IMG/VR virus record: IMGVR_UViG_3300043015_000867
Location: 1 to 41,946 of that record
Direction: 5' to 3' (one strand)
Length of the DNA stretch: 41,946 nucleotides
From: a virus
A program made the position numbers and the translations under genes. This document shows, piece after piece, positions 19,890 to 40,832 of this stretch; positions within the stretch are counted from its first letter, which is position 1, and each line of letters begins with the position of its first letter. A model generated the notes under the pieces. It did no database searches and had not been told where the DNA came from. It was given only the letters and a program-made list of their open reading frames with translations.

Positions 19890-19897
19890 TATTTATT
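19890..19897 (-). promoter_or_regulatory. late-type box AATAAATA, 5 nt before ATG 19884
   Basis: The minus strand reads AATAAATA then TTAAC then ATG. With T4 late geometry the +1 falls on the start codon. The box overlaps the stop codon of the preceding gene (AAATAA), so it could be partly coincidental. No Shine-Dalgarno sequence precedes this ATG. Confidence 0.5.
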
Positions 19898-20336
19898 TGT
19901 AGCAGTCTGCCAGTATGTATTTGTTGATTTTTGCTATTTTTACTGTTGAAAAGTGTTTATTCAATAAAGTAAAAAGTGTATTTTCATTATATACTTGTTT
20001 CCACCCACGAGATGTCTTTGGCGCCTTAATTGCTAAAGCCATAAAGATAAATCTGCTACAAGTTGGTTGTATAGTTTTTAAAAATTTATCTGGATCATCT
20101 AAATACTCAAGGACTCCTAATACAAGTCCTACTTCTGCTGTATGTTTGATTGTAAATTCTTCGTTAAAATCAATTTGATAATCTGCTAAAGGGTTTAAGT
20201 CATATCCTACATAATCTTTAAAAGATAGATAGTTGCAAACAGATTTATCTCCGCAACCAAAATCTAAAACTGTTTTATTTTCTATATTGTAATCTTTTAA
20301 GAAACGATTTCTTTCACTCCACACGGGTTCAGTCAA
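19893..20336 (-). CDS. small class I SAM-dependent methyltransferase
   Basis: This 147-aa protein has KTVLDFGCGDKSVCNYL (SAM motif I, about 18-34), then a short YVGYDLNPLADY and VGLVLGVLEYLDDPDKFLK, the D/E-x-L-x-x-x pattern of class I methyltransferases. It is short and has a weak C-terminal part. Translation probably starts at TTG (20334-20336): AAAGGAG is 7 nt upstream and the ATG-less start overlaps the previous stop by 8 bases. It may act on a glycan intermediate or nucleotide sugar. Confidence 0.7.
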   Translation of the reverse strand: MTEPVWSERNRFLKDYNIENKTVLDFGCGDKSVCNYLSFKDYVGYDLNPLADYQIDFNEEFTIKHTAEVGLVLGVLEYLDDPDKFLKTIQPTCSRFIFMALAIKAPKTSRGWKQVYNENTLFTLLNKHFSTVKIAKINKYILADCYK

Positions 20337-21234
20337 AGTAAACTCCTTTTAAATGTTCCCATGCTGTACCATTGGATATTTCTTCTTTAGTCCATAGCAT
20401 ATATCCAGCATCATAGCACCATTGTGTTCTATCAATATTAACATTAGGGTTTTCAATATTTTCTAATTTGTTTTGATTGCTAATATTCCAAACGACACTT
20501 TCATCACTTAACGGAAATGTAGGAATTCCTTCTAGTGTACTCTCAACTAATGCGTTAGTGTTGTACCCAACAACCGCCCAAGCATTATTAAAATCTTCCT
20601 CTAATGATTTGCCACCTTCTATCTTGTTTCTGTTTTTGAACACTGATGATATTTCTACATTATCTATAGTTGATTTAAATTGTAAGAAGTTTAGTTTCTT
20701 ATGATGTACGTGAGGTCTAATTATTATTTTTCTGTCTGTATATTTTCTAATTGTTTCAATAGTGTATCTAATCCAGTGTTCATAAGTACCATATTTTTCG
20801 TATAAAGAATTAAGTGTGCTGTCACCGGGTTTTTGTAAACACACAAGAATGTTGTCACCAGGTGAACTCCAATCTTTAATTTCTAAATTTTGTAAATCTT
20901 TAATTGTATTCCATCTATCTGCAGGACTATTCTCATTATTAAAATTGCCATTACGCAAAAAATGATTCCAACCTAACCTAAAATAACAACGAGAATCTGT
21001 AATAGGAAAACTGTTTTTTCTAAACAAATTACTTTCGCATACTAGTGTAGGTTTATTTTGTTCTTTAATATATTGATATGATTTTACATTTTTTGTTTTG
21101 CTTTTTTGTACATTAATTTGAAAAAACACATCAGCAGTTTCTTTTAACGAATTATCGTAATCTATTAGGTGCCAATTTGGTAAGTTGAACCCAATGTTAA
21201 AATAATTAATTTCTTTAAAAGATACAATATTCAT
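20329..21234 (-). CDS. RPHP-type glycan transferase, paralogue A (301 aa)
   Basis: It carries the family blocks: GDNILVCLQKPGDS, HWIRYTIETIRKYTDRKI, IIRPHVHHKK (RPH motif), FNNAWAVVGYNTNALVESTLEGIPTFP, LENIENPNVNIDR and a C-terminal WTKEEISNGTAWEHL. The N-terminal 110 residues are specific to this member and contain many aromatic residues. It overlaps the FkbM gene by ATGA at its start and the next methyltransferase by 8 bases at its end. A transferase for a capsule-like or teichoic-type surface polymer is the best guess. Confidence 0.6.
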   Translation of the reverse strand: MNIVSFKEINYFNIGFNLPNWHLIDYDNSLKETADVFFQINVQKSKTKNVKSYQYIKEQNKPTLVCESNLFRKNSFPITDSRCYFRLGWNHFLRNGNFNNENSPADRWNTIKDLQNLEIKDWSSPGDNILVCLQKPGDSTLNSLYEKYGTYEHWIRYTIETIRKYTDRKIIIRPHVHHKKLNFLQFKSTIDNVEISSVFKNRNKIEGGKSLEEDFNNAWAVVGYNTNALVESTLEGIPTFPLSDESVVWNISNQNKLENIENPNVNIDRTQWCYDAGYMLWTKEEISNGTAWEHLKGVYFD

Positions 21235-21890
21235 TTTATTGCTAAAAAGTTGCTCTCGTATACCGTATCTAGAATGCGTTCTTTTTGTGTAATATTAGAA
21301 AATACATCTCTCGGTATTTTATCTAGTGTAATAATACTGTGTATTGTAAAGTTATTTTCTGTAAAAAAGTCATACAAATCATTAGCAGTATAGTTGTACT
21401 CTTGAAAATGTATTTGATTACATTCAAAATAAACTAGACTAGTTTTTTGTAAAGTTTTTACTGCGCCTTGTAGTGCAGGAAGTTCTGCACCTTCTACATC
21501 TATCTTAATAAAGTAAGGATCGATGTTATAACTATCAACGGTTTTACTTTGTAGTGTTAGTTCGTTGTAATTTTCTAATCTATAATGTTTTCTTAATCCA
21601 CTCCACCCTGCACGATCAAGATCTTGATAAAATGTTACACTACCTGGTTCATTAGATACCACATCATTGTATACAAATACATTATTATCTTTTCTATAAC
21701 GACGTTTTAGTCTATTAAAATGATCCGGCAACGCTTCAATACAATGAAATTCTGCATCAGGAAAATATGTTACATAAGGAACCAACCATTTACCTGTGCG
21801 TGATCCTATATCAATCATAGTCATGTCTGTAGGTGCATGAGTTGTAATATAATCGTATATTAATTTTGTATCTTGTTTTTTAAAGTTCAT
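21231..21890 (-). CDS. FkbM-family methyltransferase
   Basis: This 219-aa protein has TMIDIGSRTGKWLVPYV (SAM motif I, about 23-39), a clear strand 2 (EFHCIEALPDHFNRLKRR), a SKTVDSY block and the family signature FIKIDVEGAELPALQGAV (about 132-149), then YFECNQIHFQ. It probably methylates a hydroxyl on a surface sugar. Its start overlaps the previous stop (ATGA), and it sits between the GT25-like gene and paralogue A. It is the minus-strand counterpart of the FkbM gene at 13718-14419. Confidence 0.85.
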   Translation of the reverse strand: MNFKKQDTKLIYDYITTHAPTDMTMIDIGSRTGKWLVPYVTYFPDAEFHCIEALPDHFNRLKRRYRKDNNVFVYNDVVSNEPGSVTFYQDLDRAGWSGLRKHYRLENYNELTLQSKTVDSYNIDPYFIKIDVEGAELPALQGAVKTLQKTSLVYFECNQIHFQEYNYTANDLYDFFTENNFTIHSIITLDKIPRDVFSNITQKERILDTVYESNFLAIK

Positions 21891-22477
21891 ACAAATAATT
21901 TTCTTCTATAATATTTTACATCAAACAGTATACTGTTAAACATTACTCTAGGAATTATCCAACCGTATTTTCTAACCACTTCAAGTGCTTTTTTGCAACC
22001 TAAAGGTGTAATAAGATACGCATCTGCATTCTTTAAACAGTTGTTTTCAAAGTAAGGATAATCATCTCCGCCTATATTGTAATTGGGTTTAGGTAAAGAT
22101 TGTATTGAGTTTTCGTACTCCCATTCACCGGCACTTAAATTTAAAACTTCAGTATAAAAGTCATTTACATTGCCTGGAATAGGCCATTGTTGCCAACAGC
22201 AGTCTTCAATTATTAGGGTTGGTTTATCAGATTCAGCACCCAGTCGCCATGCTTTTAGATGATCATAAAATGTTAAAAAATGACCATTTTCTCTATGGTT
22301 ACTGTTTCTATAATTTTTATATTTTCCGAAAGTTGCTGGAGGTATTTTGTTTACTTGATCGATTGTTCGAATACCTGTAATAGATCTATTGTTATAACCT
22401 AGTTCAACACAACGGTCATAACACTCTTGGTAATTGTTTTGATTGGTTTTTATTATTATAACATCAAAGTGATGCAT
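21887..22477 (-). CDS. GT25-like (LPS-type) glycosyltransferase
   Basis: This 196-aa protein shows the family pattern: IIIKTNQNNYQECYDRC at the start, GHFLTFYDHLKAWRLG (counterpart of the GxxGCxLSHxxxW block, about 65-80), TLIIEDCCW (where GT25 usually has L-E-D-D; here the second acidic residue is Cys), and ADAYLITPLGCKKALEV (about 151-167). The loss of one acidic residue could change metal use. Its first 14 bases overlap the end of uvsY, making it the point where the glycan cluster joins the recombination operon. Confidence 0.7.
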   Translation of the reverse strand: MHHFDVIIIKTNQNNYQECYDRCVELGYNNRSITGIRTIDQVNKIPPATFGKYKNYRNSNHRENGHFLTFYDHLKAWRLGAESDKPTLIIEDCCWQQWPIPGNVNDFYTEVLNLSAGEWEYENSIQSLPKPNYNIGGDDYPYFENNCLKNADAYLITPLGCKKALEVVRKYGWIIPRVMFNSILFDVKYYRRKLFV

Positions 22478-22922
22478 CTTCCATTCCTGCTACACGTAAT
22501 TTAGTAATATTAGTTATCTGCCATTGCTTCATGTCGATGCCTTTTAAGATTCCTAACCACTTGTTACGTAGCAGTGCAAACTCGTTGATAATTTTTTCCA
22601 TATCAACTACGTCTGCTTCGCCGTCAACATATTTTTCAACATCGCGACTGCTTAATGCTCTTTGATAGTTTTCTAAGTATTGCTTAAAATATTTACTTCT
22701 TGTTCTGCGTAGTTCGATGTTTAGGTATTCGAGGATTGCTTCAATTTCTTGTAGTTGTCCAAAACGTTTTTCTACAACACCAGGCAAACTAGAGGCGTTC
22801 TTTTCAAGATTGCCTTTCAAAGCACACTCTATCCTAGCATCTTCCATTTGTCCCTCATACCATAGTATAGCATCAGGAATGCAAGAAATATCAGTTGAAA
22901 TCCTCGAATACCAATTTATCAT
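22464..22922 (-). CDS. uvsY: UvsY-like recombination mediator
   Basis: UvsY loads UvsX onto ssDNA coated with gp32. This 152-aa protein is almost entirely helical and charged, with an ELRRTRSKYFKQYLENYQ segment (about 73-90), the SSRDVEKYVDGEADVVDM loop, and LRNKWLGILKGIDMKQWQI toward the C-terminus. The length is near that of T4 UvsY (137 aa). The identification rests on this pattern and on its place next to uvsX and the small acidic gene. Its stop overlaps the GT25 gene start. Confidence 0.75.
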   Translation of the reverse strand: MINWYSRISTDISCIPDAILWYEGQMEDARIECALKGNLEKNASSLPGVVEKRFGQLQEIEAILEYLNIELRRTRSKYFKQYLENYQRALSSRDVEKYVDGEADVVDMEKIINEFALLRNKWLGILKGIDMKQWQITNITKLRVAGMEDASL

Positions 22923-24270: not shown

Positions 24271-24279
24271 GTTTGCTCC

Positions 24280-25275: not shown

Positions 25276-25311
25276 AATATAAGCCTCCTTAATGTTTTGC
25301 CTTTATGTGCC

Positions 25312-25335
25312 TGTTGTAGATAGTTTCTAACAACA
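25312..25335 (-). other. 5'-end stem-loop in the gp32 leader
   Basis: In mRNA sense UGUUGU (25330-25335) pairs with ACAACA (25312-25317), 6 bp, with a further UAG/CUA pairing inside the loop. The predicted +1 of the gp32 promoter is near 25337, so this hairpin would sit at the very 5' end of the transcript. A second inverted repeat, GTAGATA/TATCTAC (25316-25322 and 25336-25342), is mutually exclusive with it. T4 gene 32 has a leader structure used for autoregulation; whether this is the equivalent is inference. Confidence 0.45.
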
Positions 25336-25391: not shown

Positions 25392-26000
25392 TTACCAAAG
25401 TGACTTTTGAGGAGTGAAAACAAAGTTGACAATCATTCTGCGTGGGTTTGCACTGCTTGGATTCGAACTTGCATGGAATCTGTTGCTAGGAAAAACAAAC
25501 ATTCTTCCTCTTTTTGGTTCCACAGTAGTTTCTACTTCTATATTACCCATACCCTGTCTAAGGGAATTTTTGAACAGTCTAGTAGCACCATCACAGTCAT
25601 GTAGATAATAGATCATGCTTAAACTTTCATCATGTGGACTATCAATATGCGGTGGATTGTATACTTTAGTTGGATCACTGCCATCTGCCATCATAAGATT
25701 GCTTTTCACACGTTCAATAGTTTTGATTTGCATACCTGTTTCTTTTTCTAAAAAGTAAAAGATTGGTTTGACCATTTCCCAAGTATAACATGTGATTTGT
25801 TTTGTTGGGTCTAGTACTGTGTGTACAAACTGTGGTGATTCTTTTATTTCTGGATTATCTGCAATAAAAGCAAGTTCCCAATCTTGGAATCCACTTGTGT
25901 TGTCTTGCCACATCCAGACCAAATTTGGATCCTTGAAAGTTAGTTCAAGGTGTTCTTGCATAGAAGTGGGTAATACATCGTCAAATACTTTATACATCAT
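25392..26000 (-). CDS. 2OG-Fe(II) oxygenase (prolyl-hydroxylase-like)
   Basis: This 202-aa protein has the H-x-D metal pair in NPPHIDSPHDES (H118, D120), a beta-strand LSMIYYLHDCDGATRLF, and a distal GRMFVFPSNRFHASS with the third metal His, followed by RRMIVNFVF with the 2OG-binding Arg. The layout matches small phage prolyl-4-hydroxylase-like enzymes. The substrate is unknown. A CTTAAATA box 5 nt before the ATG (one mismatch to the late consensus) suggests expression with the structural genes. The hairpin-like ACTTTG/CAAAGT at its stop lacks a U tract. Confidence 0.85.
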   Translation of the reverse strand: MMYKVFDDVLPTSMQEHLELTFKDPNLVWMWQDNTSGFQDWELAFIADNPEIKESPQFVHTVLDPTKQITCYTWEMVKPIFYFLEKETGMQIKTIERVKSNLMMADGSDPTKVYNPPHIDSPHDESLSMIYYLHDCDGATRLFKNSLRQGMGNIEVETTVEPKRGRMFVFPSNRFHASSNPSSANPRRMIVNFVFTPQKSLW

Positions 26001-26005: not shown

Positions 26006-26013
26006 TATTTAAG
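26006..26013 (-). promoter_or_regulatory. late-type box CTTAAATA, 5 nt before ATG 26000
   Basis: The minus strand reads CTTAAATA then TACGT then ATG. There is one mismatch to NATAAATA, so the call is tentative; it is listed because its spacing repeats that of the neighbouring late genes. No ribosome site is seen. Confidence 0.4.
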
Positions 26014-26032: not shown

Positions 26033-28447
26033 TTACTTTTTGATTCCGGCTAAATGAATGATTCTGTTTAGATCTTCGTTAGTCTTTTTCAACGCTTTTC
26101 TTACACCTGGATGATCTGATAAACCTTTAGCAATTTTTTCAATAGTGTTAACTGCACCTGAATAGTTACCGCCTTTGTAACGTTTATCATTAAGTACACC
26201 ATAAGCCATTTTTATCTGCTTATCACTAAACTCTTGCTTTTCAGTACCTTCGTGCGTTGTACTAATCTTTTGTTGTACTGCTTCTAAACCTTTTTCTTTT
26301 AGGTCTTCAATAAAATCATTTACTATTGATCTAGCATATCTGTCATCAGCGTCTTTTTCGCTATGGCTATCTCTTAAATGCTCTAGTTCTTCAACAGCAT
26401 CTTCAACAGTACTAGCATTTTCGATAATTTTTTCTGCATCTACTAGTGCCATATCCCAAGCATTACCGCCTTCTGCAACAGGTGCTGATTTTTTCATAGC
26501 CTGTTTTACTTCTTCGGGTGACATGCCTAATTCTTTAGCAATCTCTTCAGCACTCTTCCCTTGTTTATGTAACTTGTACATATACGGTATTGCTTCTTCG
26601 ATATCATCGTTTTCGACTTGTACCTTTTTGCCTGTTAGTTTGGATACAAATCGCTCGACTAGATCCCCTACGGAATCACCAAAACGCTTACGAGCGGAGA
26701 TTACAACACCCGTTTCACCTTTTGGAAACGCTCCAGTTTCTTTATCATAGAATGAGCGAACAAACTCAATGACATCTTCAGTTGATGCTTTTTTATCTTC
26801 AACACCATCATCTTGACCTGCTAATTTCATAGCACCGTCTTTGTCAATTGTTACATCAGTAGTGTCGTCTTCTTGTTTTAGATCACCAAAATCTAAATCG
26901 TCTAACACTTCAGGCATATTCTTTTTAACATAAGAATAAATTAAAGGTCTTACACATGCGTCAGCATCTTTGTCTGCGAGTGCAATAACATCTTTCTTAA
27001 ATGTTTCATCGTCGATAATACCTTCAAGACTACTAATTGCGTTTGTTCCATCTGGCCCTACTGGCAGATGTTTGTTAATCATTTTATTTAATAAAGCAAC
27101 TTTTTGCTTATCTATTGTTTCACTCATTACTGAGTCTGCCCACTGTTCGAATTCATCAATGTCTTCGCCGTGTGCATATTTGTTATCACGCTCTGCCCAT
27201 CTTTCTTCGGCATCTTCTTGAGCGTAGTTCATAAGTTCATCCATGTCTTGCATCTCAAGGTCCATGTCTTTGTCAAAACCTAATTTGCTATTACTATCTT
27301 GTTGGCAACTTATTTCAATTGATTTAGGATGTACAACAGGCTTACCATCAACTACTGTTGCTGTATAATATACAGTGCATGGTGTTGTTTCGCCATCGTC
27401 GCCTACACCATCCCAATCAAATTCACCATCAAAATGATCTGGATCAAAACCTTCTACTACTCCGGATATTACATCGTCGAGATTAACTGTTGTTTCAGCA
27501 ATTCTCTTTTGATGAATCTTATGTAGCAAAGGAAACATGTCAGTTAAATTTTCATTAAACTGTGGAATAGTAAATGCATTGGTAAGATCATTTACAATGT
27601 CTTCTCCCAATTCTGTTCCCGCCTCTAAAGGCATAAAGTTTTCTTTTTGTTGTGTATAATATGTTTGTGTCTGTAATTTTCTGATATGGTTTCTTAAACT
27701 TTCTAATTCAACTGTTGCACCTTCAATAATATCATTTGATGTTGAATTCATAAAGTCTTTGTGTTGTACATATCTTTTGAAAGTTGTTAGTTTTGCAATG
27801 TTCCCAGAAGTTTCAATAATGTGTTTACCAAATTCATCATGCGGCATACCACCGTTAGCAACGTGACGAGCCATTGCCCTTGCACCTGCTAGATGATTGA
27901 ATGGATACTTAAATCTTTCGCCTGATTCGTTTTCAATAAACAGCGTCTGAATGTTACGTGCTCTAGCACCCATTTGTTCTGCGTTTATTTCTTTTTTGTG
28001 TCTAATAATTAACTTAGTTTTGTCTAGGTTTTCATAACTAGACTTTGTACTTCCATACATTGCTGACTCCTGAACTTTGTTACCTAGATATTTATAGTCT
28101 CTTTTATCTAAATTTGTTTTTGCAATATCTCTAGCATCAAACCCCATCATATGTTTTTTACTAAAGAAACGCATTTCCTTTAAAAAAGCATACCAAGCGT
28201 TTTCAACTGCTTCATTAGCGTTTTCAAGCATTCCTTGGCTGTAATACAGTTTAAGTGTATCTGGATCCTTAATGCTTATGCTTACAGCACCTTGATTTTC
28301 TCCGTTAACAATGTAGTCAAAGTCAAAAAATCGTGCCTTGCTATCTTCGCTAGTAGGCGCTCCGTTTTCGTCCCCCATTTCTATGCGTGGGAAGCGAGAA
28401 CGAATCTTCTCAAATAATGATGATGCTATTGAATCTAAACCTTTCAT
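26033..28447 (-). CDS. large acidic virion-like protein (804 aa), unknown function
   Basis: This long, highly charged protein sits directly downstream of the large terminase. Visible features: a Ser/Lys-rich N-terminal third with a KNKVQES-like linker, a central acidic part with many Asp/Glu (about 330-420), an HTH-like segment KSAEEIAKELGMSPEEVKQA near residue 645, and a helical C-terminus ending RIIHLAGIKK. I recall large structural-module proteins of this kind in marine T4-like phages, without known function. A perfect TATAAATA lies 5 nt before the ATG, so it is a late gene; packaging or head association is inferred only from position. Confidence 0.65.
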   Translation of the reverse strand: MKGLDSIASSLFEKIRSRFPRIEMGDENGAPTSEDSKARFFDFDYIVNGENQGAVSISIKDPDTLKLYYSQGMLENANEAVENAWYAFLKEMRFFSKKHMMGFDARDIAKTNLDKRDYKYLGNKVQESAMYGSTKSSYENLDKTKLIIRHKKEINAEQMGARARNIQTLFIENESGERFKYPFNHLAGARAMARHVANGGMPHDEFGKHIIETSGNIAKLTTFKRYVQHKDFMNSTSNDIIEGATVELESLRNHIRKLQTQTYYTQQKENFMPLEAGTELGEDIVNDLTNAFTIPQFNENLTDMFPLLHKIHQKRIAETTVNLDDVISGVVEGFDPDHFDGEFDWDGVGDDGETTPCTVYYTATVVDGKPVVHPKSIEISCQQDSNSKLGFDKDMDLEMQDMDELMNYAQEDAEERWAERDNKYAHGEDIDEFEQWADSVMSETIDKQKVALLNKMINKHLPVGPDGTNAISSLEGIIDDETFKKDVIALADKDADACVRPLIYSYVKKNMPEVLDDLDFGDLKQEDDTTDVTIDKDGAMKLAGQDDGVEDKKASTEDVIEFVRSFYDKETGAFPKGETGVVISARKRFGDSVGDLVERFVSKLTGKKVQVENDDIEEAIPYMYKLHKQGKSAEEIAKELGMSPEEVKQAMKKSAPVAEGGNAWDMALVDAEKIIENASTVEDAVEELEHLRDSHSEKDADDRYARSIVNDFIEDLKEKGLEAVQQKISTTHEGTEKQEFSDKQIKMAYGVLNDKRYKGGNYSGAVNTIEKIAKGLSDHPGVRKALKKTNEDLNRIIHLAGIKK

Positions 28448-28452: not shown

Positions 28453-28460
28453 TATTTATA
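28453..28460 (-). promoter_or_regulatory. T4 late promoter TATAAATA, 5 nt before ATG 28447
   Basis: The minus strand reads TATAAATA, then CACAT, then ATG. It is a perfect late consensus whose expected +1 is the A of the start codon. The leader would be zero and no ribosome site is present. It lies in the 16-bp gap after the gp17 double stop (TAATAG). Confidence 0.7.
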
Positions 28461-28463
28461 CTA

Positions 28464-30053
28464 TTAGAACGAAACGAATACCGGCATTGGTAACACTGTT
28501 TCCGAGTTAATATCCTTCATTTTTTCATATATAGCAGGATCCCAATCAGCCAATATCTGTTGCATACGTACATTTAACAGTGTAGCACTAACCAAGTCAT
28601 CATGCTCTCCTGTCTTGGCACCGAACGTTGTTCCGTGTGCTACGTATGCTTTTAATTCGCTTATAAGTGGTTTACTGCGTATCTTAAGTTTGCTTTGCTC
28701 TAGTAAATGCTTGAACTTAGCACAAGCACTCATTTTAGTTTTGTGTGTTGTATTGAATCCTTTTCTAAATTTACGCACATGCCCTTTTCTAATAGGTTCA
28801 CTCAAAAACATACCGTAAATGTTTTCTTCACCGTAGTCTTTGACTGTAACAAGTGCCGCTTCGCCTATGGCGTTGTTTTCAATTGAGTAGTACACCTGTG
28901 GCAAGCGTCCGGTTGCTTCTTCACATTGTTCTTTTATAGTTTTTGTGATATCAGCAAGTATTCGTACTTGTCCTTGTATAGGTGTTAAATTGTGTTGCCA
29001 CTCTGCTACCTGTTCAAAAGTTGGCAATTCGAAAACTTGAATAGCCGCATAGTCACCTCCTGTACCTAAACTTGGGTCCATACTTACAACATAAGTCATC
29101 TTATCGTTGCAGTCTTTGTACCACCGTGTTTGACCCATTTTTCTCAAAGGTTCTTCGCCTTCGAGTTCAGCAAGTCTTACACTGTTGATTAATGTTTCGT
29201 CAAAGATTAAGAATTCACACTCGTGTTCACGTCTAAAACGTTCTTCACCAATGCGTGATTTTTCTTCTGTTGCCCATTGTTCATCTCTGTCCGGATGTTC
29301 ACTCCAATGTGCAGTAAAAGCATAAAATCCATTAATACCTACTTCGGTATCATTACCGTGTTCGTCAAATCGTTTCATTGCTTCTGTCCAAATAAGTGCA
29401 AATTGATCTTCGTCACTGTTTGGAGTAGAAGTAATAATTGCCTTACCACCTGTTGCTAGTGTAGGTGAAATAGCAGTCCAGAATTCTTTGGCAATGGTTG
29501 GGTTAACGAACGCAAACTCATCACAGTATAGTAGTGATATGGACATACCACGTCCTGTGTTGTCTGTAGTTGTTTGTGACACAATACGTGAACCGTTATC
29601 AAATTCCATCGATCCTTTGTTGTATGATACAACACCACAACGTATATGGTCAGGACAATCTTCATATGCATATCTTATTCTATGCATAATCTCTTGAGCA
29701 CCTGCATATTTGTGTGCCGCAATTAGTACGGTAACATCTGGATTAAACATTGCATACCACAGTAGATAACCTGCCGCCGTGGTTGACTTACCTGTCTGTC
29801 TTGGCAACATGTTAATATTGAATCTATAGTTGTGATATGAATCTACAAGACGCTCTTGGAATTCAAAAGGCGCAAACAACAACTTGCCTTTAGTAGGATG
29901 TTGAATATAAAAGAAATTATCCATAAAGAATTTAGCACCTGTAGTAGGATCCATACAGGCCGTAAGTTCTTCAATTTGTTCTTTTGTGTATCTAGTCTTT
30001 GAGTGTGCTTTTTTAACTAGTACACCGTCAAGACTTTTTCCTTGTTGTGCCAT
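28464..30053 (-). CDS. gp17: large terminase subunit (packaging ATPase/nuclease)
   Basis: This 529-aa protein is the DNA-packaging motor. ATPase: MLPRQTGKSTTAAGY (Walker A-like, about 81-95), SISLLYCDEFAFVNP (Walker B, DE, about 172-186) and ITSTPNSDED (coupling motif). Nuclease: VSMDPSLGTGGDYAAIQ (first Asp, about 326-342), SIENNAIGEAAL (Glu) and GEHDDLVSATLL (last Asp pair, near 490). The length is close to phage gp17. It starts at ATG 30053, 5 nt after an ACTAAATA box with no Shine-Dalgarno, and ends in TAA-TAG before the 804-aa gene. Confidence 0.97.
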   Translation of the reverse strand: MAQQGKSLDGVLVKKAHSKTRYTKEQIEELTACMDPTTGAKFFMDNFFYIQHPTKGKLLFAPFEFQERLVDSYHNYRFNINMLPRQTGKSTTAAGYLLWYAMFNPDVTVLIAAHKYAGAQEIMHRIRYAYEDCPDHIRCGVVSYNKGSMEFDNGSRIVSQTTTDNTGRGMSISLLYCDEFAFVNPTIAKEFWTAISPTLATGGKAIITSTPNSDEDQFALIWTEAMKRFDEHGNDTEVGINGFYAFTAHWSEHPDRDEQWATEEKSRIGEERFRREHECEFLIFDETLINSVRLAELEGEEPLRKMGQTRWYKDCNDKMTYVVSMDPSLGTGGDYAAIQVFELPTFEQVAEWQHNLTPIQGQVRILADITKTIKEQCEEATGRLPQVYYSIENNAIGEAALVTVKDYGEENIYGMFLSEPIRKGHVRKFRKGFNTTHKTKMSACAKFKHLLEQSKLKIRSKPLISELKAYVAHGTTFGAKTGEHDDLVSATLLNVRMQQILADWDPAIYEKMKDINSETVLPMPVFVSF

Positions 30054-30058: not shown

Positions 30059-30066
30059 TATTTAGT
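30059..30066 (-). promoter_or_regulatory. late-type box ACTAAATA, 5 nt before ATG 30053
   Basis: The minus strand reads ACTAAATA, TTAGT, ATG. One base differs from NATAAATA (C for the first A). The same octamer with the same spacing precedes the tube-like gene at 34814, which argues for function. Confidence 0.5.
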
Positions 30067-31828: not shown

Positions 31829-32326
31829 TTATTCCCCTGCTTGTCTGTCTTTTGCTTCTTTAGCAAGACTTTGCAAAAATGTTTCTTTACCTTTTTCTGT
31901 AACAACTAAGTCGTCTTTGTTAACATCTGGACCATCATATTTGTATTCACCGTCCATTAATTTTGATTCATATGTAGTATCATCTGACTCTTTTTGATAT
32001 TCTTCATATGGCTCACCCGGTCTACGCACTCTAATATTTTCTACGCTTACGTTTGTAAAGTTTGCAATGTAGTGTCTTAATTGATCCTGTGTAGTTGGAT
32101 AATTTAGAGTAGTTTCAAACACAGTTACTTCTGTATGAGTCATTTGTGGAAAGTCTAATGGTACACTCTGAATAGGAGTTTTCTTACCTGCTGTAAGATT
32201 TGCAATTTCATATTTTTTCAAAGCAGTTTCCATCTTATCTTCAAAGCCTTCAGGTAGTTCGCCCGCTACTTTAATGACAAAATCGTATTGTTTATTCGCT
32301 TCTGCTAGATACTTTTTAAAATCCAT
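31829..32326 (-). CDS. conserved hypothetical structural-module protein (165 aa)
   Basis: The N-terminus MDFKKYLAEANKQYDFVIKVAGELPEG, read as an N-terminal helix followed by a strand, continues with KKTPIQSVPLDFPQMTHTEVTVFETTLNYPTT. The rest contains LRHYIANFTNVSVENIRVR and an acidic end. I recall the SVPLDFPQM region from marine T4-like phages. Its place between gp16 and the 523-aa gene and its late box suggest a packaging or capsid-assembly role, but the sequence itself does not say. An AGGAG site precedes the ATG. Confidence 0.6.
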   Translation of the reverse strand: MDFKKYLAEANKQYDFVIKVAGELPEGFEDKMETALKKYEIANLTAGKKTPIQSVPLDFPQMTHTEVTVFETTLNYPTTQDQLRHYIANFTNVSVENIRVRRPGEPYEEYQKESDDTTYESKLMDGEYKYDGPDVNKDDLVVTEKGKETFLQSLAKEAKDRQAGE

Positions 32327-32347: not shown

Positions 32348-32842
32348 TTATTTATCTTCTTTCTTGTTTAAAATCTCTTGAATGAGTGAGTTGCGATCGA
32401 TGATTACACCCTCACTATCCACTGTATTTGCAGTATCACCTGCTCTTTGGTCTATTTGTTGCTTTTTAAGTTGCAATTCAACCATTTTTAACTTCTTATC
32501 AAGTTTAGCACTCTTAGCATCAATAGCATTTTTAAGACTGCCTACAGCAACTTCAAAAACACGGCCTGCATAACGGCTTTCTACGTTCATACCCAAATCC
32601 ATTAGATCTTCGTACGTTGCTTTTGCTTTATCTGCAAGTTCGTCTAATTCTTTATCTGCTAATTCTCCAAGTCCTTTTACCATAGGCAACGCCGCTGATA
32701 TTTTATCAAACTCTGCAATGCTTCTTTCCATCTGCTTGGCTTGTTTTGGAGTATCAACTACTTCTTGTTTTGGTTCTTCTACTTGTTCCATAGTTTCTTT
32801 AACTTCTGGGAGATCAAGTAATTCTTCTAATTTCTTCGTCAT
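32348..32842 (-). CDS. gp16: small terminase subunit
   Basis: gp16 recognises DNA and activates the gp17 motor. This 164-aa protein has the same length as T4 gp16. It starts with KKLEELLDLPEVKETMEQ, similar to T4 LLDISDLPGI. Next comes a helical region with SIAEFDKISAALPMVKGLGE and a long coiled-coil-like segment (about 95-135, KNAIDAKSAKLDKKLKMVEL). The C-terminal part ends RNSLIQEILNKKEDK. The order small subunit upstream of gp17 fits. A late-type box overlaps its 3' end for the next gene. Confidence 0.85.
   Translation of the reverse strand: MTKKLEELLDLPEVKETMEQVEEPKQEVVDTPKQAKQMERSIAEFDKISAALPMVKGLGELADKELDELADKAKATYEDLMDLGMNVESRYAGRVFEVAVGSLKNAIDAKSAKLDKKLKMVELQLKKQQIDQRAGDTANTVDSEGVIIDRNSLIQEILNKKEDK
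32349..32356 (-). promoter_or_regulatory. late-type box GATAAATA for the 165-aa gene
   Basis: The minus strand reads GATAAATA within the last codons of gp16. Predicted +1 is near 32343, giving a 17-nt leader with an AGGAG site before ATG 32326. It shows the ordinary late-gene layout in this phage: box, short leader, ribosome site. Confidence 0.5.
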
Positions 32843-32847: not shown

Positions 32848-32855
32848 TACTTATC
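32848..32855 (-). promoter_or_regulatory. possible late-type box GATAAGTA, 5 nt before ATG 32842
   Basis: The minus strand reads GATAAGTA, CTATT, ATG before gp16. One base differs from NATAAATA (G in the second-to-last third). Its spacing equals that of the leaderless set, so it may be a weak member, but a mismatch in this AT-rich setting makes it uncertain. Confidence 0.3.
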
Positions 32856-33674: not shown

Positions 33675-34814
33675 TTATCTTCCAACGGTTTCTTGATTTG
33701 TAGTATCATTATTCCCGGCACCTTGTTGATTGTTTTCTAATTGACCAGATGCAGTTCCGGATGGATTGCCGGATTCTGCTTTAGTACGTTTTGCCGCATC
33801 AAACTTGTCAGCACCTTTTTGATCAATTGTTTGTCTAGCAGTTCTTATTAAACTTTTTTCTGTAATGCCTTGGATTTCGTTACGTACACCTTCTTTAGTT
33901 AACTGTTTTGCATTATCAATTGTGTTCTTGGCTTTAATTGCAGTACCAATAAATGCAAATGGATTTGCAAAAGCATCACCACTTGCAACATCTCCGAATA
34001 CATCTAAGCCTCCTGCAAGTACACCATTTGCTCCAAAAAATCCTGCTGTTCCTCCTCCCATTACACTTAACGGTGAAGGAGTTCTATCGTAGTGCAGTGT
34101 TGCAAATCCTGTAGGATTATCAGTAGTAATCCTGCCTGTTGCATATTTTACACCTTCATAGATAACAGTCATTTGATTCTCTACAGGTTGTGAACTACCA
34201 GCAGTCATGTTTGGCGGATCCCAACTTTGTATCATAGGATTAATTAGTGTAAATTCAAAAAATCTATGACGTGCTAATTGATATATGCTAACACCTTCAT
34301 TTTGAAAGAAGTTTTTATTTCTATCACTGTTTAAACCAAACTTAACATATTGCTCTGATCCTTGATAAGGTGTTTGCTTATAAAGTTCCTGCCAATATAA
34401 ACTATCGTTGTAGTTTGCTTTAAAATATTGTTGCCAGAACGCATTGGTTAGTCCGTCATTGTCATCATGAAAATTAATTGTAACAGGTGCGTATGTTACT
34501 GCTGTTTGGTAATTTGTTTTTTTACCGTATTGATTTTTTGTATCTGTTTGTACTTGTATTCCAGGTAATTTCACATCCTTAACTAGCATACCGCATTCAA
34601 TTTGTGGACTTGCTCTGTTAAAACTAGCATCTGGTGATCGTAACGCAATATTATTAATATTAAATGTTACATGATATAAAAATCCAACCTTAGGTGCAAG
34701 ACGCATGTAGTCATCAGTAAACAAACGAGCCGCGTGTTGATAATCACGCATGTCGCCTTCACTTCCGAATATACCGTTGAATACGTTTCCTAAAAACTTT
34801 GTTAACTTTGCCAT
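33675..34814 (-). CDS. tail-tube-like baseplate protein (gp48/gp54-type)
   Basis: This 379-aa protein has a tube-fold domain in its first 240 residues: LFTDDYMRLAPKVGFLYHVTF (about 29-49), IECGMLVKDVKLPGIQV (about 72-88), AVTYAPVTINFHDDND (about 104-119), and HRFFEFTLINPMIQSWDPP, all with the beta-strand pattern of gp19/gp48/gp54. The remainder is Gly-rich (GGGTAGFFGANGVLAGGLDVFGDV, cut here) and a hydrophilic tail. gp48 and gp54 initiate tube polymerisation on the baseplate; which of the two this is cannot be said. A late-type box lies 5 nt before the ATG and a terminator sits upstream, so it begins its own unit. Confidence 0.7.
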   Translation of the reverse strand: MAKLTKFLGNVFNGIFGSEGDMRDYQHAARLFTDDYMRLAPKVGFLYHVTFNINNIALRSPDASFNRASPQIECGMLVKDVKLPGIQVQTDTKNQYGKKTNYQTAVTYAPVTINFHDDNDGLTNAFWQQYFKANYNDSLYWQELYKQTPYQGSEQYVKFGLNSDRNKNFFQNEGVSIYQLARHRFFEFTLINPMIQSWDPPNMTAGSSQPVENQMTVIYEGVKYATGRITTDNPTGFATLHYDRTPSPLSVMGGGTAGFFGANGVLAGGLDVFGDVASGDAFANPFAFIGTAIKAKNTIDNAKQLTKEGVRNEIQGITEKSLIRTARQTIDQKGADKFDAAKRTKAESGNPSGTASGQLENNQQGAGNNDTTNQETVGR

Positions 34815-34819: not shown

Positions 34820-34827
34820 TATTTAGT
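34820..34827 (-). promoter_or_regulatory. late-type box ACTAAATA, 5 nt before ATG 34814
   Basis: The minus strand reads ACTAAATA, ATAGT, ATG. It directly follows the terminator (34831-34865), so transcription of this gene must begin here or by read-through. The same octamer and spacing precede gp17. Confidence 0.55.
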
Positions 34828-34830: not shown

Positions 34831-34865
34831 AAAAAAAGGCCGGAGATTTTTACGTCTCCGACCTT
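34831..34865 (-). terminator. Rho-independent terminator after gp19
   Basis: On the minus strand AAGGTCGGAGA pairs with TCTCCGGCCTT (11 bp, one G-U), around an 8-nt loop, followed by seven T. It lies 18 bases beyond the gp19 stop and just before the late-type box of the next gene, separating the two tube-family genes. It is the clearest terminator in the window. Confidence 0.9.
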
Positions 34866-34883: not shown

Positions 34884-35510
34884 TTAACCTGTTGCTAACG
34901 TTCTAATTGTTCTGCCAATTGCGCCGCCTAAGCCGCTTGGTTGACCTGCACCATTAGTTTGAATAGCATTATCATATTGGATTTGTAGTTGAATATCAAC
35001 TGGATTTGAATCACTGTATGATAACTGGTTGTAGTTAATATCTTGAACAAAGCAACCTACTAACTCGAAAGTTTCAAGTACGCTAGGAGCATTAGCGCCA
35101 TTACCACCATCAAGTATTTCGATTCTACCTTTGAACTTGTAATCAACACCAGATGCCGCACTTGACTGTTCGAAGAAGTCAAATTGCTTCTGAAGTTGCT
35201 CACCGCACAGTTTGTTAACTGAGTTGTTCACATCATCTCTTAGAGTGATTGTGATTGGTTGCCATGTATGTTTACCTGCATAGTAAACTTTTGAGTTGTA
35301 GACATCAATTGCTACAGATTCAAAGTTTACATTAGGTCTTGTTACATCAATAACCTGCTTTGTTAATTCTACACTCGGACTTCCAGCACCAAAATTTTCA
35401 AGTGATACTCTAAAGCGATACTTTAGTTTTGGCATCAACAAACCTTGGGTGGATGCTGACTGGTCACTTGCTAATGGAACTGTAAATCTACTTAAACTTG
35501 AAATTGCCAT
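34884..35510 (-). CDS. gp19: tail tube protein
   Basis: gp19 polymerises into the inner tail tube. This 208-aa protein has the tube fold pattern: KLKYRFRVSLENFG (about 27-40), VELTKQVIDVTRPNVNFESV (about 47-66), WQPITITLRDDVNNS, GRIEILDGGN, and ETFELVGCFVQDINYNQLSY with the conserved strand-turn-strand end. The length is near T4 gp19 (163 aa) with extra loops. A strong ribosome site (AAAGGAG) precedes the ATG and a GATAAATA box lies about 23 nt upstream. Sheath gene gp18 precedes it, as in T4. Confidence 0.92.
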   Translation of the reverse strand: MAISSLSRFTVPLASDQSASTQGLLMPKLKYRFRVSLENFGAGSPSVELTKQVIDVTRPNVNFESVAIDVYNSKVYYAGKHTWQPITITLRDDVNNSVNKLCGEQLQKQFDFFEQSSAASGVDYKFKGRIEILDGGNGANAPSVLETFELVGCFVQDINYNQLSYSDSNPVDIQLQIQYDNAIQTNGAGQPSGLGGAIGRTIRTLATG

Positions 35511-35532
35511 TATCTTGCTCCTTTTACAGTTT

Positions 35533-35540
35533 TATTTATC
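35533..35540 (-). promoter_or_regulatory. late-type promoter GATAAATA for gp19
   Basis: The minus strand reads GATAAATA in the gap after gp18. Predicted +1 is near 35527, leaving a 17-nt leader with an AAAGGAG ribosome site. A normal late-gene layout, unlike the leaderless set. Confidence 0.6.
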
Positions 35541-35544
35541 TTCA

Positions 35545-38500: not shown

Positions 38501-38892
38501 GCTGGAGCACCTGCTGGTGCATCGTTTGATCCTTGTAATTTTCCTAAGTCTACATTCGCTCTTACAACATACGCTCTGTTAGCCACGCCTAGGTATGAAT
38601 AAGCCGCCTGTAAACCATACTCATTTAATTCGTTACCATGTAGTGGGTTATTAGAAGTGTCTGTATAGAAAGTTGGATTACCAAAGGTTTCTGTTAACTC
38701 TCTCTGACTGGTAATTAAGTAAACTTTATTTTTGTTTGATGCTAGTGTACCTGCCGCAGTTCCTGTCCCTGTGCCTGATGGTTTGCTTTCAGCAGTAGCA
38801 ACAACAATTAAAGGTGTTGTAGCACCAGCGGCTGGGGTATAGAAACTTTCATCGATTACGCTAACTTCAACTCCGGGTGATGATAGTGCCAT
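35545..38892 (-). CDS. gp18: tail sheath protein, oversized (1115 aa)
   Basis: gp18 forms the contractile sheath. The C-terminal part is the conserved sheath core: GAKINPITFITGSGLVNFGQ (about 985-1004), then RINVARLTAYLRRQL, FLFEPNDKITRDEI, and a final PVKAVEFIYIPLRL. The N-terminus (SSPGVEVSVIDESF) is also typical. The middle is enlarged: T4 gp18 is 659 aa. It contains at least four G-x-x-W-x-x-x/Y-x-x-W units (for example GTYWFDTDDSLYGLFQWNG, GTLWYNTTLDEVDIMVHDG, GDLWIDSGN), which look like surface-exposed repeat domains. The promoter at 38931-38938 and a GGAG site drive it. Confidence 0.93.
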   Translation of the reverse strand: MALSSPGVEVSVIDESFYTPAAGATTPLIVVATAESKPSGTGTGTAAGTLASNKNKVYLITSQRELTETFGNPTFYTDTSNNPLHGNELNEYGLQAAYSYLGVANRAYVVRANVDLGKLQGSNDAPAGAPADGTYWFDTDDSLYGLFQWNGSTQTFTNKTPTVIGASSDLTGVSGATYTGVKGSVGAKGDYAVVTWNTENKVWYKNEDNIWVQVGSYDESAFDAVGFATSTTWNSTTWKTSWPTITATLTPSALGSTNVIINNTQVNNAGSTPATFVQAINDAAIPGVGAKLDANDRVKIYSDGTSSTDGTTTDGAILIEEGSGQILTDLGITAGYFHSPELQISAHSSVPLWRATDRVEVGGTGYSGLRPTGSVYMKTTTPNLGASLKVKLYSTGTGLWSTVATPIYNSAAEAIKALDSEGGKNIPTGTLFALANTTEDSKQIADFKLHRRLIPSPTSATGSVANPTISAGTKTFTIAETTAGATAFTSASVSFTGTDADALVEAISDAGLTNVVAEVTANGNVKISHTVGGEIRLTDGNGTPLATAGFTSSVDNVYDAGSQASEDLVISNWKPLSYEAKAGAPTSDPENGTLWYNTTLDEVDIMVHDGTTWRGYNKVYSDADPKGPIVSATEPTQQSDGTSLVNGDLWIDSGNTETYGQKIYKYDGLNLEWAAVDVADQTSEDGILFADARYGETGVTGDTKADIEDMLVSDYLDPDAPDPALYPRGMLLWNTRRSGNNVKIFRTTHIDINENSGRNKRFQGTGAVYDGGSDEAMASYKVNRWVGWNTTAEDGSGLFGRKAQRKTVVAALKSQIDTNDDLRDEETRAYTLLAAPGYPELTSNLVNLNIDRGITGFVVADTPFRLSASATTLQNYGNNTGNALADGEDGFVTYDEYMATFYPSGFTTDLTGNNIVVPPSHMMLKTIALSDQVSFPWFAPAGTRRGGISNASSVGYINDEGEFTPVSLNDGTRDTMQGAKINPITFITGSGLVNFGQVTRARNASALDRINVARLTAYLRRQLNLLAKPFLFEPNDKITRDEIKQAAESLLLELVGQRALYDFLVVCDETNNTPSRIDRNELYLDIAIEPVKAVEFIYIPLRLKNTGEIATLGAQ

Positions 38893-38930
38893 GTTATATA
38901 CTCCTTGTATGGTTTTAGTATTTCTAAAAG

Positions 38931-38938
38931 TATTTATA
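38931..38938 (-). promoter_or_regulatory. T4 late promoter TATAAATA for gp18
   Basis: The minus strand reads TATAAATA, with +1 near 38925 and a leader of about 33 nt before ATG 38892, including an AAGGAG ribosome site. This is the textbook late promoter of the major tail operon. Confidence 0.8.
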
Positions 38939-38994
38939 CAGATCTAGGAAAAATGCTACTTAATATACGTATGAAAAGGGGTTGAAAAGGGCGT

Positions 38995-39002
38995 GATAAA
39001 TA
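38995..39002 (+). promoter_or_regulatory. late-type box GATAAATA, 5 nt before ATG 39008
   Basis: The plus strand reads GATAAATA, CAGTT, ATG. It is the plus-strand member of the set with 5-nt spacing. No ribosome site lies near this ATG, and a GTG at 38993 within the box would be the only longer start. Confidence 0.6.
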
Positions 39003-39007
39003 CAGTT

Positions 39008-39346
39008 ATGACTAGGTCTTTATGTAAGCAATGCAAGAAACGCCCAGTTGCTATTAACTATTACAAGGGCAAAACACCATACTATAGAAGTAAATGTGAT
39101 CGTTGTGCTAGTGGCAGATCACCCGGAATACCGTTTTGGCATAAAGCAGGATATCGTCAAAAAGACAAGTGTGATAAGTGTGGATATTCAAGCAAACACA
39201 CTGAACAGTTCAATGTGTATCATATAGACGGAAACTTAACTAATTGTAAGCATAGCAACTTAAAAACTATTTGTGCTAACTGTCAAAGAATTATGCAAAA
39301 AACAGGTGTTACTTGGAAGCAGGGAGACCTAACACCTGACTTCTAA
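39008..39346 (+). CDS. HNH endonuclease-like zinc protein (112 aa)
   Basis: The start is the ATG at 39008 (a GTG at 38993 would overlap the promoter box). An N-terminal zinc-ribbon pair (CKQCKKRP, CDRCASG) is followed by an HNH-type core: CDKCGY ... VYHIDGNLTNCKHSNLKTICANCQ. The His-x-Asp-Gly-Asn and Asn-Leu parts match HNH folds, but the final His of a classic C-x-x-C-H is Gln here, so catalysis is uncertain. It is inserted in opposite orientation between gp18 and gp1, typical of free-standing homing endonucleases. Its 3' end overlaps the gp1 gene by 38 bases. Confidence 0.8.
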   Translation: MTRSLCKQCKKRPVAINYYKGKTPYYRSKCDRCASGRSPGIPFWHKAGYRQKDKCDKCGYSSKHTEQFNVYHIDGNLTNCKHSNLKTICANCQRIMQKTGVTWKQGDLTPDF

Positions 39347-39971
39347 CAGCGTTACCTAGATCTTCTAAAGTCCCATCATTCTCAATAACACCGTCAACTT
39401 TTTCACCTACCCAAGCATATTCACTAATATGCACATCTGGGTGTTGCTCTTTCATCTTATCAGTAAGTATCATATTCTTAGTAACTAGTGCTTCTTTATT
39501 ATGTTCGTTTTGTTTAATAGCATCATCGAACCATATAGGATTAGGCCCACGTTTGATACGGTATACTTTACCACGCAGTCTTTTGATCATTTTAATTTCG
39601 TTAGGGAAACGTACATCGCTAATAACAGCATCTTGCTTCATTTGTAGCAGTTTGCTTTCTAAACTAGCAATCCATATATCGTCATGAAAACCTTTACGTA
39701 GAACATCTGTACCCCAATATTGCAATATCCAACGTGGAGTAAGTTTTGGCATTTCTAGTTTTTCTGCCCACCATTCATCTACTTCTTCACGCCATGCACG
39801 TGATTCTTCTGTGTTTCCTTCTAGTGCTTCTCGGTCCCAACCAAATACAGCAGAAACAGCATCTTTAAGTGTAGTGGCAAAACTAACACGTTTATACCCA
39901 CCTTCGCTAACAAGGGTGTCAGCACAGGTATCTTTTCCAGAGCCAATCAGGCCAACGAAACCAACAATCAT
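39309..39971 (-). CDS. gp1: deoxynucleoside monophosphate kinase, gp1-like
   Basis: gp1 phosphorylates dNMPs to supply dNTPs for phage DNA synthesis. This 220-aa protein has VGFVGLIGSGKDTCADTL (P-loop, about 3-20), SFATTLKDAVSAVFGWDRE (about 30-48), TPRWILQYWGTDVLRKGFHDD (about 79-98, shortened here) and VISDVRFPNE (about 117-126), the family blocks. T4 gp1 is 241 aa. A sigma70 promoter lies directly upstream, so it is expressed early although it sits inside the structural block. The 3' end is overlapped by the convergent HNH gene. Confidence 0.9.
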   Translation of the reverse strand: MIVGFVGLIGSGKDTCADTLVSEGGYKRVSFATTLKDAVSAVFGWDREALEGNTEESRAWREEVDEWWAEKLEMPKLTPRWILQYWGTDVLRKGFHDDIWIASLESKLLQMKQDAVISDVRFPNEIKMIKRLRGKVYRIKRGPNPIWFDDAIKQNEHNKEALVTKNMILTDKMKEQHPDVHISEYAWVGEKVDGVIENDGTLEDLGNAVRSQVLGLPASK

Positions 39972-40001
39972 AGTAAGTTTATATATCCCATGTAAAAGTT
40001 T

Positions 40002-40030
40002 ATTATATACTAGGTGAATAAAAAAGTCAA
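40002..40030 (-). promoter_or_regulatory. sigma70-type (early) promoter for gp1
   Basis: The minus strand reads TTGACT (40025-40030), a 17-bp spacer, TATAAT (40002-40007). Predicted +1 is near 39995, about 24 nt before the gp1 ATG. Same architecture as the gp32 promoter. Confidence 0.8.
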
Positions 40031-40036
40031 GTGTTT

Positions 40037-40798
40037 TTATCCAATAACAAACGATAATGGAGTAGAACCGTCAACATAGTTTGCCAAATCTTGTTCTAAC
40101 TTCTCAATATCCGATTGTGCATCCGCTTTGAGTGCGTCTCCGTTTAATGAAGTACCTCCTTGCGGTGTTGAAATTGTAGCAAATTTGCCACGTGCTTCAC
40201 CAATCATGTATTTGCACGTTGCAAGTGTATAATCTTTTAACCATTGTCCTGCATAAGGATCACTTAGTAAAATAAAGTCTGGTCGTTGATTGTACACCGC
40301 TAACATAACTTCTTCATCGCCTCTAGGTCTTTGCATTATTGTTAGTTTGTGATTAACTGGATCAAATTTAAAGTTAATAAAAGAGCCAAACATTTTACCT
40401 ACAAGTTCTTGATATCCAGCAAAGGCCATATAAGTTGCCAACCCGCCCATTTGCGTAGAACTTAATAGATAGGTGTTTGTGTATGCAAGGTTGAATGGTT
40501 CAAATATTGTACCACCTTGACCACCACCGCTTCTTGACCCAATACTTCTGCGAAACACTTCTTTGACACTTTGTATTTCATTTGGAAGTATGTAATCGTT
40601 AGTGTCTTCTTTTAATTCTAAAAATGCGTAAGATTCTTCTACAGCATTTTCTGCTCTTTGTCTATATTTGCCAAGTGCTTTCTCTAGTGCTACTTCGTAG
40701 TGATCAACATCTAGTTCAACGTCAATCATACCGTCACCTAGCAACTTCTTGACGTAATTAAACAGTTTTGTTTTTGCGGTATCTAATTGTGTGCTCAT
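40037..40798 (-). CDS. gp13: neck protein gp13
   Basis: gp13 joins head and tail with gp14. This 253-aa protein shows the pattern of marine T4-like gp13: LGDGMIDVELDVDHYEVALEK (about 20-40, cut), YRQRAENAVEESYAFLEL, DYILPNEIQSVKEVFRRS, then a Gly-rich loop and QMGGLATYMAF, and the C-terminal end LANYVDGSTPLSFVIG. A helical N-terminal half is followed by a beta-rich middle. A late-type box lies 5 nt before ATG 40798. It is divergent from gp14, unlike T4, where 13-14-15 form one unit. Confidence 0.92.
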   Translation of the reverse strand: MSTQLDTAKTKLFNYVKKLLGDGMIDVELDVDHYEVALEKALGKYRQRAENAVEESYAFLELKEDTNDYILPNEIQSVKEVFRRSIGSRSGGGQGGTIFEPFNLAYTNTYLLSSTQMGGLATYMAFAGYQELVGKMFGSFINFKFDPVNHKLTIMQRPRGDEEVMLAVYNQRPDFILLSDPYAGQWLKDYTLATCKYMIGEARGKFATISTPQGGTSLNGDALKADAQSDIEKLEQDLANYVDGSTPLSFVIG

Positions 40799-40803
40799 GC
40801 TAT

Positions 40804-40811
40804 TATTTATT
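40804..40811 (-). promoter_or_regulatory. late-type box AATAAATA, 5 nt before ATG 40798
   Basis: The minus strand reads AATAAATA, ATAGC, ATG. It is one half of the divergent promoter pair between gp13 and gp14, with no ribosome site. Confidence 0.6.
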
Positions 40812-40824
40812 CGATCGTCATTCC

Positions 40825-40832
40825 AATAAATA
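40825..40832 (+). promoter_or_regulatory. late-type box AATAAATA for gp14
   Basis: The plus strand reads AATAAATA, then 8 bases to ATG 40841. With the same geometry +1 is near 40838, leaving a 3-nt leader. It shares the 42-bp intergenic space with the gp13 box. Confidence 0.6.

Follow-up and report, generated by a model that had tools for sequence, protein, structure and literature searches.

Leaderless mRNAs are known from bacteria and phages, with lambda cI transcribed from PRM as an example, and they strongly prefer AUG as the start codon. A general remark that phage transcripts are often leaderless is made in PMC5312081, which also describes the late promoters of the jumbo phage phiKZ, transcribed by a phage multisubunit polymerase (nvRNAP) with the G of a TATG motif as the start site. 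T4 late promoters (TATAAATA; gp55, gp33 and gp45) have an 8-bp late box starting at -13 (PMC2988020). Among the literature matches listed, which lie mostly outside the subscription literature and include PMC2984593, PMC5312081, PMC2988020, PMC7029224, PMC7892664, PMC9004378 and PMC3037559, the accessible excerpts nowhere described late mRNAs of T4-type phages as leaderless, and we judge T4-type late transcription feeding leaderless initiation to be undescribed in the literature found. Here we analyse a 41,946-base virus record, IMG/VR IMGVR_UViG_3300043015_000867, positions 1 to 41,946 (hereafter the window), in which T4-type late boxes stand at a fixed distance of 5 nucleotides (nt) before the start codons of a set of genes; these boxes are very probably late promoters positioned so that the late mRNAs are leaderless, or leaderless to within a base or two.

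The promoters of the window and its relatives share with those of T4 the TAAATA core, the lack of a -35 element, a gp55-type sigma gene (found in a relative), and, downstream of the box, a purine as the sixth base preceded by a T. They differ in their distance to the gene: none of the 18 TATAAATA sequences in the 73-123 kb region of T4 is spaced 5 nt from the ATG of a downstream open reading frame (ORF) of at least 60 amino acids (aa), and the 13 matches within 60 nt of an ATG are found at 14-32 nt, eight of them at 24-28 nt. An earlier note on this DNA took the T4 box to span -13 to -6, as follows from 8 bp starting at -13 (PMC2988020); with such a box 5 nt before an ATG, +1 would fall on the A of the start codon. 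The late promoters of phiKZ offer a likeness in a jumbo phage, since they overlap TATG and would possibly lie beside start codons, whereas the window clade has a T4-type box and a gp55-type sigma factor. The known leaderless mRNAs of bacteria and phages resemble the predicted ones in the expected 5'-terminal AUG and the absence of a Shine-Dalgarno site, but in the window clade this is apparently a standing layout of 40 protein families, 22 of them seen once.

All seven late boxes reported in the earlier note were found at the positions claimed, the last box base being exactly 5 nt from the ATG. They are listed here together with a variant box and with the box that faces the gp13 promoter.

19890..19897, minus strand: late box AATAAATA, 5 nt before the ATG at 19884 of a nucleotidyltransferase-cupin gene (19090-19884)
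26006..26013, minus strand: late box CTTAAATA, 5 nt before the ATG at 26000 of a gene with a 2OG-Fe(II) oxygenase domain (25392-26000)
28453..28460, minus strand: late box TATAAATA, 5 nt before the ATG at 28447 of an 804-aa virion protein gene (26033-28447)
30059..30066, minus strand: late box ACTAAATA, 5 nt before the ATG at 30053 of the terminase large subunit gene gp17 (28464-30053)
32848..32855, minus strand: variant box GATAAGTA, 5 nt before the ATG at 32842 of a gp16-like gene (32348-32842) with a weak small-terminase match
34820..34827, minus strand: late box ACTAAATA, 5 nt before the ATG at 34814 of a 379-aa tail-tube-like gene (33675-34814)
38995..39002, plus strand: late box GATAAATA, 5 nt before the ATG at 39008 of an HNH endonuclease gene (39008-39346), divergent from gp18
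40804..40811, minus strand: late box AATAAATA, 5 nt before the ATG at 40798 of gp13 (40037-40798)
40825..40832, plus strand: late box AATAAATA, 8 nt before the ATG at 40841 of a virion protein gene (gp14 of the earlier note), the divergent partner of the gp13 promoter

The window contains 37 TAAATA hexamers, and seven of them are followed at 5 nt by the ATG of an ORF of at least 60 aa, the next commonest spacings being 22 nt (three) and 8 and 28 nt (two each). The expectation at 5 nt, calculated from fourteen permuted hexamers, is 0.36, and the corresponding Poisson probability is 1.1e-7, or 4.7e-6 allowing for 41 offsets, which bears out the earlier claim that a fixed 5-nt offset exceeds chance. 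TAAATA is about half as frequent in the window as in dinucleotide shuffles (37 versus 71.6); therefore, the 5-nt peak is not a by-product of AT content. The scarcity itself perhaps reflects selection against stray late promoters.

The spread of this layout was followed in the best 80 of more than 597 IMG/VR loci matching the window terminase, and among cultured phages the terminase matched PA5oct-like jumbo phages at 56% identity. Counts for the clade comprise the window, these 80 relatives, and 44 further stretches partly covering the same records. ORFs shorter than 60 aa were generally dropped, the limit being 50 aa in the HTVC008M annotation check and the sigma-70-like primase scan and 100 aa in the Shine-Dalgarno comparison and for terminator control genes. 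Repeated N-termini were removed, over 30 residues for start counts, terminators, sigma-70-like promoters, Shine-Dalgarno sites, HTVC008M relatives and -35 elements and over 20 residues for leadered promoters, as were sites too near a contig end and, in orthologue comparisons, identical upstream sequences; protein families were linked by blastp at 1e-5. In the pooled 80 loci, an ATG stood 5 nt after TAAATA 230 times, with 39 for the next commonest gap. After removal of repeated N-termini, 177 distinct starts at 5 nt remained in the window and its IMG/VR relatives, falling into 40 protein families, of which 18 have at least two members and 22 have one, and some of the single ones may be due to chance. 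Other spacings in the clade were represented by 26 distinct starts at 4 nt, 21 at 7 nt and 7 at 8 nt.

The genome-wide distance histogram, which the earlier note had proposed as its refuting test, peaks at 5 nt in the 182-kb relative G001, with 20 cases against 0.36 expected. The 5-nt counts were 17 in G002 and 7, 9, 7, 7, 6, 6, 5 and 4 in G003 to G010, each against an expectation of at most 0.36; the counts of G001-G003 are not independent of the window, since the G003 terminase is identical to that of the window and the G001 and G002 terminases match it just as closely. In a motif-free count of all 6-mers at offsets 0-30 in 17 records, based on the first 30% of the frames of at least 80 aa, TAAATA at offset 5 ranked top in seven records (the window, G001, G002, G008, G013, G014 and the cultured phage HTVC008M), second in G006, fifth in G007 and eighth in the cultured phage Mosig, and was outside the nine combinations listed in the other seven. 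G007 is peculiar in that spacings of 7 nt and 5 nt are about equally frequent for TAAATA (5 and 4 cases, respectively), and TTGACA ends 29 nt before an ATG five times, as if sigma-70-type genes were leaderless there too.

The offset is also conserved between orthologues, although these are related and the counts overstate their independence. Among distinct orthologue upstream sequences, TAA[AG]TA is found at 5 nt in 13 of 14 for the gene starting at 19884, 36 of 47 for that at 28447, 43 of 49 for terL and 27 of 33 for that at 34814, and the 28447 gene has a box within -14..-5 in all 47. For these four genes, identity in the box columns is 0.75-0.90, compared with 0.39-0.44 in the flanks 21-50 nt upstream. 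The HNH gene has the box at 5 nt in 12 of 19 upstream sequences (within -14..-5 in 16 of 19) and the gene at 26000 in three of four. Two relatives were found for gp13, one with the box at 5 nt and the other lacking TAAATA within 42 nt upstream of the ATG that was chosen. The gp16-like gene, proposed earlier as a weaker eighth case, proved to be real but weaker: besides GATAAGTA at 5 nt in the window, TAA[AG]TA occurs at 5 nt in 21 of 37 distinct orthologue upstream sequences, mostly as the TAAGTA variant, while 14 of 35 have a far TAAATA instead of a near box. The 8-nt gap claimed for the gene at 40841 was likewise found, and it is 7 nt in both relatives found. Wrongly chosen start codons were considered and rejected as a source of the pattern, the tblastn orthologues of near-box genes mostly having an ATG within a few codons of the window start; in the first 50 kb of HTVC008M, nine of nine starts match the deposited annotation.

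Other late genes of the window carry the same box farther upstream.

32349..32356, minus strand: contrast late box GATAAATA, 22 nt before the ATG at 32326 of a 165-aa virion protein gene with an AGGAG site
35533..35540, minus strand: contrast late box GATAAATA, 22 nt before the ATG at 35510 of the tail tube gene gp19 with an AAGGAG site
38931..38938, minus strand: contrast late box TATAAATA, 38 nt before the ATG at 38892 of the tail sheath gene gp18 with an AAGGAG site

The leaders and AGGAG-type sites ascribed to gp18, gp19 and the 165-aa gene are thus present, with boxes at 38, 22 and 22 nt, respectively; gp32, to which a leader with a strong ribosome site had also been ascribed, has an AGGAG-type site, and the 45 nt upstream of the gene contain no TAAATA. 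The arrangement is kept by orthologues: of 28 gp19 upstream sequences, none has the box at 5 nt and all 28 combine a far box with a ribosome site, and the 165-aa gene has a far box in 34 of 37 and a near box in 3 of 37. A Shine-Dalgarno site without a near box was found for gp32 and for the major capsid protein gene in G001, G007, HTVC008M and PA5oct. In the clade, Shine-Dalgarno-like sites precede seven of 165 near-box genes versus 126 of 177 genes with a box 16-32 nt away, the frequency of such a score at any ATG being 12.2%; these figures favour the two translation modes suggested earlier, a near box without and a far box with a Shine-Dalgarno site.

Further signs of leaderless initiation are seen around the near boxes. 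Their start codons at 5 nt comprise 177 ATG, no GTG, no TTG and one CTG. Of the 177 starts, 84% have a T and 14% a C immediately ahead of the ATG (98% together), while 27 of 28 gp19 sequences have A or G there. Of 122 leadered promoters of the clade, 54% have T as the fifth base after the box and 77% have a purine as the sixth, a step that matches the T-A found at the start codon. The first two octamer bases are loose in clade boxes, and a -35 element is absent as a class feature, since TTGACA with at most one mismatch was found in six of 177 cases versus 11 of 177 at a control position. An intrinsic terminator occurs within 65 nt upstream of 56 of 177 near-box genes, versus two of 359 Shine-Dalgarno genes and none of 177 shuffles. 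The one listed first in the terminator scan of the window (11 pairs) adjoins the 34814 gene.

34836..34865, minus strand: intrinsic terminator with an 11-bp stem and a T run that ends beside the late box of the 34814 gene

A second promoter class appears to be placed in a comparable way. A -10 hexamer is numbered -12 to -7, which places +1 one base beyond the six nt that follow its end. Sigma-70-like promoters, defined as TTGACA with at most one mismatch, a spacer of 16-18 nt, and TANNNT with at most two mismatches to TATAAT, were followed by an ATG at 6 nt in 15 distinct starts of the clade and in at most six at any other gap up to 25 nt. The example in the window precedes the primase gene.

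1310..1344, minus strand: sigma-70-like promoter TTGACA-17-TAAAAT, ending 6 nt before the ATG at 1309 of the DNA primase gene (299-1309)

Six distinct copies of the primase promoter at 6 nt were found in the clade, including that of the window, the only copy whose gene was profile-scanned. With sigma-70-like promoters at 6 nt and late boxes at 5 nt, the canonical +1 of both classes falls on the same A, and two promoter classes each in its own register would be hard to explain unless the transcription start is what is being positioned. Sigma-70-like starts at 6 nt were not found in T4, PA5oct, Atu_ph07, 121Q or Melnitz; the two cyanophages gave 1, and HTVC008M and Mosig 4, where 11 nt has 5. 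The sigma-70-like primase promoter (1309), the terminators and the second lineage represented by HTVC008M go beyond the earlier note.

A clear 5-nt peak was not found in T4 (3 versus 0.7 expected), Syn9 (0), S-PM2 (1), 121Q (0), PA5oct (3 versus 1.6) or the first 400 kb of Atu_ph07 (2 versus 0.7), and the box-to-ATG counts of these six phages are highest at about 20-32 nt, weakly so in PA5oct. One of the PA5oct 5-nt sites, before the structural gene gp262, is at the deposited start. The pelagimyophages HTVC008M and Mosig, both isolated on Pelagibacter ubique HTCC1062 (ocean bacterium SAR11), and the methylophage Melnitz (Kyanoviridae) form a separate lineage by their taxonomy line, and HTVC008M shares the 5-nt lock. 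It has 12 cases at 5 nt versus 0.84 expected, and the nine predicted 5-nt starts in its first 50 kb all coincide with deposited coding sequence starts. Mosig is weaker (6 versus 0.35; 11 exact patterns versus three reversed), and Melnitz has three cases versus 0.2 but four at 29 nt (five exact patterns versus three reversed). In 80 IMG/VR relatives of HTVC008M, spacings of 5 nt (18 distinct starts) and 6 nt (24) dominate, the next having 6. A survey of pelagimyophages reported that the prediction of middle and late promoters was unsuccessful (PMC7029224), and 15 late promoters have been reported for Melnitz (PMC9004378).

A candidate for the factor reading the boxes is encoded in G001, where a gp55-type late sigma gene lies at 106290-107081 (phrog_12791, E = 1.3e-80). 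A phage-coded translation factor was considered as the cause of the layout and rejected: ribosomal protein S21 genes occur in PA5oct, HTVC008M, Mosig and Melnitz but were not found in any of seven clade records, in T4 or in S-PM2, so their distribution does not track the 5-nt trait and S21 is not supported as the cause. Initiation factor 3 was found in none of 13 records searched.

These observations can be combined in a model in which a phage late sigma factor of the gp55 type, acting on the host RNA polymerase, would read the boxes, and the canonical transcription start, six bases past the box, would be the A of the start codon. The near-box late mRNAs would then be translated by the host ribosome from a 5'-terminal AUG without a Shine-Dalgarno site, while other late genes, including those of the tail tube and sheath, would use the same box 20-40 nt upstream together with a strong Shine-Dalgarno site. 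Both the precise +1 and the use of leaderless initiation by host ribosomes are inferred from sequence. The leaderless reading advanced in the earlier note gains support from the start codons, the few Shine-Dalgarno sites, the terminators, the pyrimidine at -1, the conserved offset and the sigma-70-like register.

Several observations weigh against it. The exact pattern is hardly commoner than the reversed one in G011, G012 and G013 (1, 2 and 4 versus 1, 1 and 3), some genes of which have the box at 4 nt. Box identity is lower for the HNH gene (0.60) and for gp16 (0.53), and the latter value hardly exceeds that of the box-free gp19 at the same columns (0.49). The scarcity of Shine-Dalgarno sites is partly built in, the box occupying much of that region, and the terminator control genes may mostly lie inside operons, where no terminator is expected. 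Among sigma-70-like starts at 6 nt, six of 15 belong to one gene, the primase, and leadered cases are as numerous (15 at 32 nt, 12 at 37 nt and 11 at 30 nt). The gp55 gene was found in one of 14 IMG/VR records searched (G001), many of them short and the window itself partial, and the gp45 clamp Pfam model matched one of seven records, that of T4. HTVC008M relatives favour 6 nt over 5 nt (24 versus 18), and such boxes, together with those at 4 and 7-8 nt in the clade, indicate that +1 may vary by a base or two.

The last point leads to an alternative in which the boxes do act as late promoters, with transcription beginning at +3 to +5 after the box or at scattered positions, giving leaders of 1-3 nt that still lack a Shine-Dalgarno site. 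The boxes at 7-8 nt in some genes, including that at 8 nt before the 40841 gene of the window, and at 6 nt in HTVC008M relatives fit this explanation, which we nevertheless regard as unlikely: the clade chiefly uses a spacing of 5 nt (177 starts, compared with 26 for 4 nt and 21 for 7 nt), the A almost always follows a T or C, and the one-base shift of the sigma-70-like promoters is exactly what a +1 at this A would require.

It is very improbable that translation proceeds mainly from longer read-through mRNAs, coupled to that of the upstream gene, with the box acting as a secondary promoter. Half of the eight near-box genes (19884, 26000, 28447 and 32842) do lie 8-32 nt after an ORF on the same strand. 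However, terminators stand directly upstream of 56 of 177 near-box genes, that at 34814 included, and Shine-Dalgarno-like sites occur in just seven of 165. Moreover, gp13 and the 40841 gene diverge across the 42 bp at 40799-40840, which hold two back-to-back late boxes, and the HNH gene diverges from gp18, so that no co-directional gene closely precedes gp13, 40841 or HNH.

We attach still less weight to the proposal that TAAATA is no promoter and serves as an AU-rich ribosome-binding enhancer before the start codon of leadered mRNAs. Its fixed distance to the ATG and AT-richness would suit such a role, but TAAATA also occurs at 16-32 nt, where 126 of 177 genes have a Shine-Dalgarno-like site. 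Moreover, the hexamer agrees with the late box of T4, one relative encodes a late sigma factor, terminators precede the element, and the sigma-70-like promoters show another sequence in matching register. Coincidence in AT-rich DNA, ruled out by the permuted hexamers, the motif-free count and the comparison phages, has a negligible probability given P = 1.1e-7 in the window alone and the recurrence in relatives with diverged flanks.

If the near boxes are promoters for leaderless late mRNAs, the leaderless candidates of the window comprise the large terminase subunit and, judged by a weak match, the small one, together with gp13, the 804-aa virion protein, the tail-tube-like gene, HNH, the oxygenase, the nucleotidyltransferase and the primase, and the leadered genes are the tail tube, the sheath and the 165-aa virion protein. 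From this gene list one could speculate that abundant proteins keep leaders and scarcer ones go leaderless. The oxygenase gene (25392-26000, minus strand) has endonuclease V as its best PHROG label, yet Pfam gives a 2OG-Fe(II) oxygenase domain, and the label looks wrong. The best cellular relatives of the nucleotidyltransferase-cupin protein (19090-19884) are in SAR86 and Rhodobacteraceae metagenome-assembled genomes (49-55%, 6 loci in all), a weak hint that leaves the host unsettled.

T4-type late control is a textbook system that presumes leaders and Shine-Dalgarno sites, and a clade that dispenses with both in dozens of genes would be a natural test of leaderless translation during infection. 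The 5-nt layout may help to account for the unsuccessful prediction of middle and late promoters in SAR11 myophages (PMC7029224), and the cultured HTVC008M and Mosig make the prediction testable at the single-base level. As a tentative and somewhat doubtful extension, late promoters, and in part sigma-70-type promoters, could have been rebuilt independently in two T4-type phage lineages to place +1 at the start codon, resulting in leaderless late expression throughout the genome, with leadered Shine-Dalgarno mRNAs reserved for abundant virion proteins and protein dose set by the mode of initiation; such rebuilding may be an adaptation to the hosts.

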